Assembly (NCBI RefSeq): GCF_000730385.1 | Contig: NZ_CP008849.1 | Span: 4,030,001 to 4,094,000, forward strand | Origin: Alteromonas australica | GTDB taxonomy: Bacteria > Pseudomonadota > Gammaproteobacteria > Enterobacterales > Alteromonadaceae | DNA length: 64,000 nucleotides | Reading direction: 5' to 3' | Shown: positions 31,793-37,752 of the stretch, piece after piece | Layout of the letters: each line of letters opens with the position of its first letter | Position numbering within the stretch: position 1 is the stretch's first letter | Program-made: the position numbers and the translations under genes | The notes under the pieces: model-generated | Databases searched by the model: none | Told to the model about the DNA's origin: nothing | Seen by the model: the letters and a program-made list of their open reading frames with translations, nothing else

Positions 31793-31808
31793 TGTCTTAT
31801 ATAAGAGT
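31793..31808. promoter_or_regulatory. Probable GntR operator upstream of the TonB receptor
   Basis: TGTCTTATATAAGAGT matches the perfect palindrome at 35729 in 14 of 16 positions and contains the 12-bp palindrome TCTTATATAAGA. A second small palindrome, AAGATATCTT, lies 9 bp to its left. The rest of the 300-bp gap between the receptor and the symporter gene shows nothing else I can name. Confidence 0.75.
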
Positions 31809-31900
31809 TATTAAGTTAAACAATTGTTAAAGAGTTTGCAAACGTTATGTTAATTTTTTTGCGTTTTTTCTGTACAGCCCTGTAGAAACGGGGCGAATAC

Positions 31901-33628
31901 TTATAGACCAGGCGTAGCAAGACGCTTTAGGCCTCGCTCGTATTTAAAGCGCCACCACTTCAGGCTAAAGCCGATAGCGACAAAACAGGTGCTCCATAAC
32001 GCGATAAGCGATGGAATAAAGAGATTGCTAATGCCGCCAACAAACCCCACAGGAGAGAACATGAGATAGAGGGTGACAATCAGGCCTACCAGCACTATGG
32101 CGCAGGGAATAGCGTAACGCCAAGGCGTCATATTCACTTCCGCTTTAGGTGTAAAGTGCCAGGGGGTTTGCAGGGGGTACAGACGGCCTATAACCAGCAT
32201 AATGGCGAGCTCTATGGCAAATAAGATGGCATAGATGTGAATAAAGTTAATGTCTACTTCCCACACAAATTTTAGCAATCCGTATGCAATCACATGGAAA
32301 ATAATGGCAACTTTTGCCGCTAAAGCTGGTACCCGTTTGGTAAATAAGCCTACCAACACAATGGTAATAACAGGAATGTTATAAAACCCGGTGAAGATAC
32401 GAATAATTTGCCACAGGCCCTCAGGGGCAAACATTAAAAGCGGAGCCGTAATAAATGACAAGACAGCAATAACCAAGCTGGTTATTTTGGCCACACGAAT
32501 AAGCTTCTCATCTGTCACTTTGTCTTTTTTCAGAGGCTTATAAACATCTAAACAAAACAGCGTGGCAGCACTATTGAGTAACGAGTTGAACGAACTGAAT
32601 ACTGCGCCCAGCAAAACAGCCAAAAAGAAACCTGACAAATATTGAGGTAGTACGTCTTTCACCAAATGAGGATAGGCTAAGTCGATGGTTTGTAAGTTCT
32701 CATCTTGATATAGATGATACGCAATCACACCAGGTAGCATCATCATAAAGGGCACTAGCACTTTAAAGTAACCAGAGAAAAGCACACCTTTTTGCCCTTC
32801 TACGAGGTTTTTAGCCCCCAGAGTGCGTTGAATCACATATTGGTTAGTCCCCCAATAAAACAAATTAGCGAGGATCATGCCGGTAAATATGGTGCCAAAG
32901 GGCACAGGATCGTCACGACTGCCTATGGCATTCAGCTTTTCTGTTTCTGTGGTGGCAATGGTCGATAACCCCTGACTGAAACTGCCATCACCCAGCGCGA
33001 TTAACCCCAATACAGGCACCAAGAGCCCTACAATTAACAAACCAATACCATTTATCGTATCTGAAACCGCCACGGCTTTAAGACCACCAAAAATAGCATA
33101 GAGCGCACCCACGGTTCCCACAACAATAATGGTAAAGACCAATGACGCTTCATAGCTAATATTGAGTAACCCGGGTACATCAAATAGCCTTAGAACAGCA
33201 ATAGAGCCTGAATACAGCACTGAAGGAATGGTGACCAAAGAGTAGCCCACCATGAAAAGCACCACCGTCATTCTTCGCACGCTGTCATCGAATCTGTTGC
33301 GCAAAAATTCAGGGAGCGTTGAAAACGCTCCTGCCAAATAACGGGGGAGAAAAATTAACGCCATAATGATGGTGGATATACCTGCGGTGACCTCCCATGC
33401 CATGGCGCTTAAGTTATAGCCAAATGCAGAGCCGTTTAGCCCGATGAGTTGCTCTGCAGACAAATTAGTGAGAATCATAGACCCAGCAATAAAGGTACCG
33501 GTAAGCCCTCTCCCAGCGAGGAAATACCCATCTTGAGTATTCACTTCGCCTTTGGTTTTCATGTACGAAATTACGGCCACAATAGCCATAAACGCCATGC
33601 ATGATAATAGGGTTAGGGTGATATCCAT
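31901..33628 (-). CDS. Sodium/solute symporter (SSS family), probable sugar importer
   Basis: 575 aa, with AGGAGTCGTAC before the ATG. About 14 hydrophobic segments are seen. Family traits include GRGLTGTFIAGSMILTNLSAEQLIGLNG near the start and the WGTNQYVIQRTLGAKNLVEGQKG loop, typical of SGLT-like sugar symporters. It is 16 bp downstream of the GH31 gene in the same transcript. It would bring the sulfosugar or its glycoside across the inner membrane with sodium, fitting a marine host (substrate inferred). Confidence 0.9.
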   Translation of the reverse strand: MDITLTLLSCMAFMAIVAVISYMKTKGEVNTQDGYFLAGRGLTGTFIAGSMILTNLSAEQLIGLNGSAFGYNLSAMAWEVTAGISTIIMALIFLPRYLAGAFSTLPEFLRNRFDDSVRRMTVVLFMVGYSLVTIPSVLYSGSIAVLRLFDVPGLLNISYEASLVFTIIVVGTVGALYAIFGGLKAVAVSDTINGIGLLIVGLLVPVLGLIALGDGSFSQGLSTIATTETEKLNAIGSRDDPVPFGTIFTGMILANLFYWGTNQYVIQRTLGAKNLVEGQKGVLFSGYFKVLVPFMMMLPGVIAYHLYQDENLQTIDLAYPHLVKDVLPQYLSGFFLAVLLGAVFSSFNSLLNSAATLFCLDVYKPLKKDKVTDEKLIRVAKITSLVIAVLSFITAPLLMFAPEGLWQIIRIFTGFYNIPVITIVLVGLFTKRVPALAAKVAIIFHVIAYGLLKFVWEVDINFIHIYAILFAIELAIMLVIGRLYPLQTPWHFTPKAEVNMTPWRYAIPCAIVLVGLIVTLYLMFSPVGFVGGISNLFIPSLIALWSTCFVAIGFSLKWWRFKYERGLKRLATPGL

Positions 33629-33644
33629 GTACGACTCCTAGGGC

Positions 33645-36631: not shown

Positions 36632-36647
36632 TGTATGATATAAAAAC
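36632..36647. promoter_or_regulatory. Weak possible operator upstream of the GntR gene
   Basis: TGTATGATATAAAAAC matches the regulon palindrome at 11 of 16 positions, in the 99-bp spacer between the TSUP and GntR genes. It could serve autoregulation but is poor enough to be chance. Confidence 0.3.
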
Positions 36648-36674
36648 AAAAACTAAGCATTGGGTTACGGTTAC

Positions 36675-37424
36675 ATGTCTTCATCACAATTCGACCACAA
36701 ACTTGGCGGTCCAAGCCTTGCCTTCCAACCTCTTTACCAGCAGGTTGCTGAATACATTAAGCAACTTATTGTAGAACGCAGGTGGCAACCGGGCGAAATG
36801 CTTCCAAGTGAATTCAAGCTAGCCGACGAATTTAACGTAAGCCAAGGCACTGTAAGAAAAGCCCTAACCTTGTTAACCGACACCAAAATAGTTAATCGCC
36901 GGCAAGGTGTTGGCACATTTGTATCTGAGCACACCGCACAAGATGCTTTGTTTCGCTTTTTTCCATTGCAAGCCGATGGAAAGGGAGCCGACTTACCCAA
37001 AGCCGAGCTTTTGAATAAAGCGTTAGCAGAGCCATCTGAAGCTGTTCAACGGGCATTATCTTTATCACCTAAAGATAAAGTCGTTAAGCTAAACCGCAGA
37101 CGTATTCTTGATAACGAGTTCTGCATGCTCGAAGCCGTATATTTACCCGCCAAGCTTTTTGCCGATATTGAAAAGCGGGAAGATATACCTCATACGCTGT
37201 ATCACTTTTACCAAACCGACTATAACCAAACGGTATTTAAAACCCGTGACAGCATTAAAGCGGTACTCGCGTCAAAAAGTGATGCGAAAAGCCTGAATAT
37301 CGAAAAAGGCACACCTTTACTTCTGGTTACCCGAGTCACCGAGTCGATTGACGGTACACTCATAGAATACCGTGAAAGCAAATGTCGTACTGATCACTAC
37401 CATTACCAGGTTGAATTAGATTAA
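36675..37424 (+). CDS. GntR-family (HutC/UTRA) regulator of the sulfosugar locus
   Basis: 249 aa from ATG 36675; a TTG at 36660 is the alternative and neither has a strong ribosome-binding site. The N-terminal winged helix contains WQPGEMLPSEFKLADEFNVSQGTVRKAL, and the UTRA ligand domain follows (KLNRRRILDNEFCMLEAVYLP, TPLLLVTRVTESIDGTLIEYRESKCRTDHYHY). HutC-type regulators bind short palindromes and are released by a pathway sugar or intermediate. Its central position and the matching palindromes on both sides make it the likely repressor of the whole cluster. Confidence 0.92.
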   Translation: MSSSQFDHKLGGPSLAFQPLYQQVAEYIKQLIVERRWQPGEMLPSEFKLADEFNVSQGTVRKALTLLTDTKIVNRRQGVGTFVSEHTAQDALFRFFPLQADGKGADLPKAELLNKALAEPSEAVQRALSLSPKDKVVKLNRRRILDNEFCMLEAVYLPAKLFADIEKREDIPHTLYHFYQTDYNQTVFKTRDSIKAVLASKSDAKSLNIEKGTPLLLVTRVTESIDGTLIEYRESKCRTDHYHYQVELD

Positions 37425-37752
37425 CTTTTTACTTTGCAGAAAAAGCGCAATCACATACTATTTTAGCCTCACACTCATCCGCTTTCTAATCTTTATCTTC
37501 GCTTCTCTCGCGAGCTGCAACTCCTGCTAATGCCGCCTATCGCATGCTTTCGCTGATTAGGGTGAGGTTAGACTCCCAGCAACCATTAAAAGATCCAGCT
37601 CTATTTGTTAACACTTTGTTGACATCGCTGGTTACGTATAATAACTTATGTCTTATACAAGACTAAAGTATTCTTTGTGAGGTTATACCTAACACCGCAA
37701 TTGAAGTAAAACCCTTTAGATTAAATTTTCGACTGACAAGGTGATATACGCG
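37425..37752. other. Intergenic region carrying the operator of the reductase-dioxygenase operon
   Basis: About 330 bp between the GntR gene and the aldo-keto reductase. It must contain the promoter of the five-gene operon. The only clear element is the palindrome at 37649-37664; an imperfect inverted similarity between about 37466 and 37570 may be a weak terminator of the GntR transcript. Confidence 0.5.
37649..37664. promoter_or_regulatory. Probable GntR operator upstream of the reductase-dioxygenase operon
   Basis: TGTCTTATACAAGACT matches the perfect 16-bp palindrome at 35729 in 14 of 16 positions. It lies about 90 bp before the reductase start codon. Confidence 0.75.

Follow-up and report, generated by a model that had tools for sequence, protein, structure and literature searches.

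The 16-bp palindromes at this locus of Alteromonas australica most likely mark switches through which one GntR-family regulator would control the uptake and breakdown of sulfoquinovose, as judged from sequence comparison. The best explanation, to which we give a probability of roughly 80%, is that the HutC-subfamily GntR protein encoded next to the sites uses the palindrome as its operator, and that it would repress by blocking promoters and be released by a sulfosugar-derived inducer. This explanation builds on the sites themselves, their genomic specificity, their conservation, the promoter geometry and the co-occurrence of motif and regulator, all of which were observed. Sulfoquinovose is an abundant sulfosugar of plants and algae and is among the most abundant organosulfur compounds.

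In the window (the whole 64,000-nucleotide stretch of DNA that was analyzed), three copies of the palindrome were found. Operator O1 (31793-31808, minus strand; TGTCTTATATAAGAGT, 14/16 matches) lies 188 bases before the start of a gene encoding a TonB-dependent outer-membrane receptor (29184-31604, minus strand), which is proposed to import the sulfosugar, free or as a glycoside. Operator O2 (35729-35744, minus strand; TGTCTTATATAAGACA, 16/16) lies 17 bases before the start of the gene for a GH31 glycosidase (33645-35711, minus strand) with the catalytic Asp kept, which forms an operon with a sodium:solute symporter (SSS) gene of the NF007790 family (31901-33628, minus strand). Operator O3 (37649-37664, plus strand; TGTCTTATACAAGACT, 14/16) precedes the operon of an aldo/keto reductase (AKR; 37741-38706, plus strand, alternative ATG start at 37753), proposed to be a 6-dehydroglucose reductase, and a TauD-family Fe(II)/2-oxoglutarate dioxygenase (38716-39723, plus strand), proposed to be a sulfoquinovose dioxygenase. 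The locus also contains genes for a TauE/SafE-type sulfite exporter (35823-36575, minus strand), the GntR regulator (36675-37424, plus strand), a YeiH-type putative anion exporter (39729-40733, plus strand), and a SorA-like molybdenum sulfite dehydrogenase (40767-42068, plus strand) and a SorB-like cytochrome c (42093-42467, plus strand), the last two scoring below curated cut-offs. The earlier note on this DNA had given the three positions and match counts exactly, and it named the right three gene sets, although its gene list did not follow the order of the coordinates.

With up to 3 mismatches allowed, 3 sites were counted in the window where 0.28 ± 0.47 would be expected, and 3 was not reached in any of 100 shuffles. 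In the genome of 4,308,833 bases, O1, O2 and O3 are the sole matches with at most 2 mismatches, and all lie at one locus. At 3 mismatches, there are 14 matches versus 15 for a reversed-pattern control, which indicates that the palindrome has no background excess genome-wide. A global operator with many targets was rejected because the genome shows no excess past the three sites. The earlier note had seen no further copy in the window by eye and had called the sites locus specific, which the window and whole-genome motif searches bear out. The receptor operator may be tandem: roughly 30 bases from it lies another copy or degenerate dyad, clear in one related locus (L042, 3099-3145) and degenerate in the window (31766-31790, AAGATATCTT).

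In gene content, the locus matches the sulfoquinovose dioxygenase route, with genes for a TauD family dioxygenase, an AKR, TauE and SorA/SorB-like proteins adjacent to each other. In PMC12890257 and PMC13372026, the sulfo-ASDO/sulfo-SDO pathway with SqoD and SquF is credited to Ye et al. 2023, and the dioxygenase route is described for Marinobacterium and as typical of Oceanospirillaceae and Alteromonadaceae. The window likewise combines a 2-oxoglutarate dioxygenase and an oxidoreductase with putative sulfite release in a member of the Alteromonadaceae, which are typical hosts; it differs in its regulator and operator, which are not described in the accessible pathway literature. The link between sugar and sulfonate genes claimed previously is therefore a known pathway rather than a new one. 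In a fold comparison, the dioxygenase gave Z scores of 21-22 to TauD and AtsK and 39 to At3g21360; its closest solved relative by sequence, PDB 9yut, was not among the structures listed by that comparison.

The conservation of the sites was analyzed by phylogenetic footprinting, which the earlier note had asked for, in 80 loci with a related dioxygenase, in each of which the cluster genes were located. The same sites were found before the same genes in relatives. The palindrome recurs in Alteromonas, Pseudoalteromonas, Paraglaciecola, Glaciecola, Planctobacterium, Arenicella, Pseudomaricurvus, Pokkaliibacter and Balneatrix, where it precedes the receptor gene, the GH31 operon, the AKR operon or more than one of these, and sites persist before all three down to about 60% protein identity. 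The motif built from 119 distinct site contexts has 26.7 bits, with TCTTATAYAAGA nearly invariant, and conservation is about 1.7 bits per base within the site versus 0.3-0.5 in other upstream DNA. The TonB receptor gene accompanies the regulon in relatives, and in eight Alteromonas genomes, where the receptor has been relocated by 13-36 kb, the site is retained before it. In Paraglaciecola, gntR and GH31 form a pair located away from the AKR operon, and every promoter still has a site. The palindrome lies at or just past the expected start site, as would suit an RNA hairpin or a mere promoter element rather than a protein operator; this reading is hardly credible, as the centre (TATAYA), which would be the loop, is conserved as strongly as the arms, variants such as TATACAAG alter one side only, in either orientation, and the distance from site to start codon ranges from 16 to about 300 bases.

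Some further sites lie outside the sulfoquinovose cluster. In Pseudomaricurvus and an Alteromonadaceae bacterium (L168, 4618; L169, 4651 and 4959), extra sites before genes outside the cluster adjoin TonB-receptor-like ORFs, and the regulon may be wider there. In another locus (L171, 8329-8344), the motif lies between a related GntR gene and a GD_AH family dehydratase gene, a possible sulfonate target; sulfolactate sulfo-lyase is a member of this family as well.

The motif co-occurs with the regulator. Within Alteromonas, TGTCTTATAYAAGA was found in all 23 genomes with the GntR and in none of the 36 without it, which is weak evidence alone because genomes acquire or lose the cluster as a whole. 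Among the 44 genomes bearing the dioxygenase, RTCTTATAYAAGAY was present in 28/28 with a GntR ortholog and 0/16 without one (Fisher P = 2e-12, a value that overstates independence since the genomes are related), with a search pattern that had been built on loci of some of these genomes. In the Alteromonadaceae loci L058 and L076, GH31, AKR and dioxygenase are kept and both the motif and this GntR are absent; the L076 genome retains two other UTRA-GntR proteins. A lone match in a GntR-less genome (G084, L134), located where an old-yellow-enzyme-like gene ends, was taken as chance. The alternative that another DNA-binding protein recognizes the palindrome, with GntR a mere bystander in the cluster, would draw on the fact that a shared cluster yields co-occurrence for free within Alteromonas. 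It is very improbable, given that the dioxygenase genomes have either both motif and GntR or neither, also where gntR is located elsewhere. In addition, in a class-wide sample the motif lies beside GntR genes 35-41% identical to that of the window, in loci unrelated to sulfoquinovose, and the palindrome is contained in a published motif of a GntR-type regulator, SdhR, both of which speak for recognition by the GntR itself.

The window GntR has the domain order of the HutC subfamily, an N-terminal GntR helix-turn-helix and a C-terminal UTRA domain (PF00392, 78 bits; PF07702, 107 bits; both above the Pfam cut-offs). Its predicted UTRA fold is closest to those of DasR, YvoA and PhnF. Its recognition helix is VSQGTVRKAL, and the helix VSQGT[VM]RKA is invariant across 50 regulators of 37-94% identity. 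The claim of a single GntR regulon joining three transcripts is thus well supported by the footprinting, the co-occurrence, the sites kept after moves of genes and regulator, and the fixed recognition helix.

Comparison with known regulators places the operator among published types. HutC operators typically contain GT-N4-AC (PMC4494728). YvoA/NagR, DasR and PhnF resemble the window GntR in domain order and predicted UTRA fold, but the GT/AC pairs of the window palindrome are 10 bases apart: TGTCTTATATAAGACA has GT-N10-AC and not GT-N4-AC, which is common but not obligatory in the subfamily, SdhR being a listed exception with the motif TCTTATGTCTTATATAAGACATAAGA (Suvorova 2015, PMC4494728, citing Suvorova 2012 on malonate/propionate catabolism). 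The SdhR motif contains the window palindrome exactly, with the 16-bp core exact at O2 and the outer TCTTA/TAAGA boxes partial. The type of operator is thus already known, and the palindrome is less novel than the earlier note supposed. Branch comparison was made with presumed SdhR-type proteins (L172-L174), which are encoded beside aconitase/methylcitrate genes and also have the SQGTVRKA helix; in L172 and L173, the motif-bearing GntR genes adjoin methylcitrate/CitE-like genes and an aconitase gene. These presumed SdhR-type proteins share 35-37% identity with the window GntR and form a branch of their own, and the controlled genes differ, the window sites being confined to the sulfosugar locus instead of TCA/propionate genes. 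CsqR, a DeoR-family and not a GntR protein that controls sulfo-EMP genes, differs from the window regulator in both family and targets. CsqR of the E. coli yih genes is a local regulator of sulfoquinovose catabolism (PMC10991401), and the window GntR is likewise proposed to be one.

The promoter geometry points to the mode of action. In the GH31 and AKR promoters, TTGACA and TAACTT are placed at -30 and -7 relative to the palindrome with a 17-base spacer between them, and the palindrome begins one base after TTGACA-N17-TAACTT (O2, minus strand, 35769-35774 and 35746-35751; O3, plus strand, 37619-37624 and 37642-37647). Both hexamers are present within one mismatch at 35 of 48 distinct AKR sites and 31 of 37 distinct GH31 sites. 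The geometry is weak for the receptor, whose promoter in the window has TTGCAA-N17-TAACTT a few bases farther out (upstream of O1 on the minus strand, 31836-31841 and 31813-31818), and it is absent in a second clade (Arenicella type); the proposed promoters were not detected in a simple sigma-70 scan. By analogy with the SdhR motif, TAACTTA may also represent an outer half-site of the operator, instead of or besides a -10 box. Because the palindrome is placed one base after TAACTT, it covers the expected start site, and a repressor operator is therefore most likely. That the same GntR binds the palindromes as an activator or dual regulator would be in keeping with the unclear placement of the hexamers at the receptor promoter and with TAACTT being a poor -10 match. 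It is unlikely, since at two promoters the position of the site after the -10-like hexamer suits blocking and not activation, and the best characterized relatives in the HutC subfamily act as repressors, in line with their PDB names.

In the favored repressor model, in which binding, repression, inducer and enzyme activities are the inferred part, a GntR dimer would bind TCTTATAYAAGA and cover the expected transcription start, thereby blocking RNA polymerase. The putative inducer, a small molecule derived from the sulfosugar after import (sulfoquinovose or its glyceride), would bind the UTRA domain and release GntR, and the receptor, the GH31-symporter operon and the AKR-dioxygenase operon would be switched on together, the last probably extending to the sulfite exporter and the sulfite dehydrogenase genes. 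After import of the sulfosugar glycoside, the sugar would be freed, the dioxygenase would cut the C-S bond, the product would be reduced to glucose, and sulfite would be exported or oxidized.

The region before gntR was also considered for a site. The 11/16 match reported there exists (36632-36647, plus strand; TGTATGATATAAAAAC), but its dyad is not conserved: relatives keep TATGATATAA, a likely -10 box, and the match is better read as the gntR promoter's -10 box (TATGAT) than as an operator. An autoregulatory site before gntR in Alteromonas was rejected, conservation being limited to the -10-like TATGATATAA. In some Paraglaciecola (L116-L119), a true palindrome site lies directly before gntR. 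Separately, TGTGATTTATATTAAA at 36598-36613 (TGTGATTTAnATCAAA in relatives) looks like a CRP site; its center lies about 40 bases upstream of the predicted start of gntR, a class II position, and gntR may for this reason be CRP-controlled.

The substrate was also approached through a second pathway. In Balneatrix and Pokkaliibacter, a GntR ortholog and a perfect palindrome are found on a sulfo-ED cluster encoding an SDR, an aldehyde dehydrogenase, an ILVD/EDD dehydratase, an HpcH/HpaI aldolase and GH31, together with an SMP-30 lactonase, a TRAP transporter and TauE in Balneatrix. The best match of the Balneatrix SDR is the PDB sulfoquinovose 1-dehydrogenase (277 bits), and an AKR-dioxygenase operon elsewhere in the genomes of both genera likewise carries the site (L081, L087). 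These clusters lend independent support to a sulfoquinovose-related substrate. A universal sulfo-ED operator was not supported, as the SQ-dehydrogenase-like loci L197-L200 have no site. The window GH31 is closer to YicI than to YihQ; the Asp residues aligned with YihQ D405 and D472, presumably catalytic, are kept, and the presumed sulfonate-binding residues R301, W304 and Y508 were not found in the aligned window GH31 or its relatives (Y508 is replaced by F). The GH31 of the Balneatrix sulfo-ED cluster, 50% identical to that of the window, also has none of these sulfonate-binding residues. The sulfoquinovosidase role of the window GH31 is therefore only putative. The GH31 clade of sulfo-SDO and sulfo-ED clusters (window 33645-35711; L166, 16789-18966) may be a second kind of sulfoquinovosidase.

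A 2026 review of sulfoquinovose catabolism mentions no regulators. The pathway and the operator type are each known, and their connection appears to be unreported in the literature accessible here; the use of an SdhR-type operator for sulfoquinovose is new as far as the search reached. It is moderately probable that a HutC-type GntR lineage has kept the operator TCTTATATAAGA and the recognition helix while the controlled pathway was repeatedly exchanged, and with similar confidence the exchanged pathways would be the sulfoquinovose dioxygenase genes, the sulfo-ED genes and the TCA/methylcitrate genes. If so, no transcriptional switch for the oxygenolytic sulfoquinovose pathway would have been described before that of the sulfoquinovose branch, which would also connect two alternative sulfoquinovose pathways in one genome. 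The 14-base signature predicted the regulon in this genome set. Alteromonas and its relatives are reported sulfoquinovose users, and a defined regulator and operator tie the outer-membrane receptor to sulfosugar uptake and would make it testable when marine bacteria turn on the oxygenolytic route.
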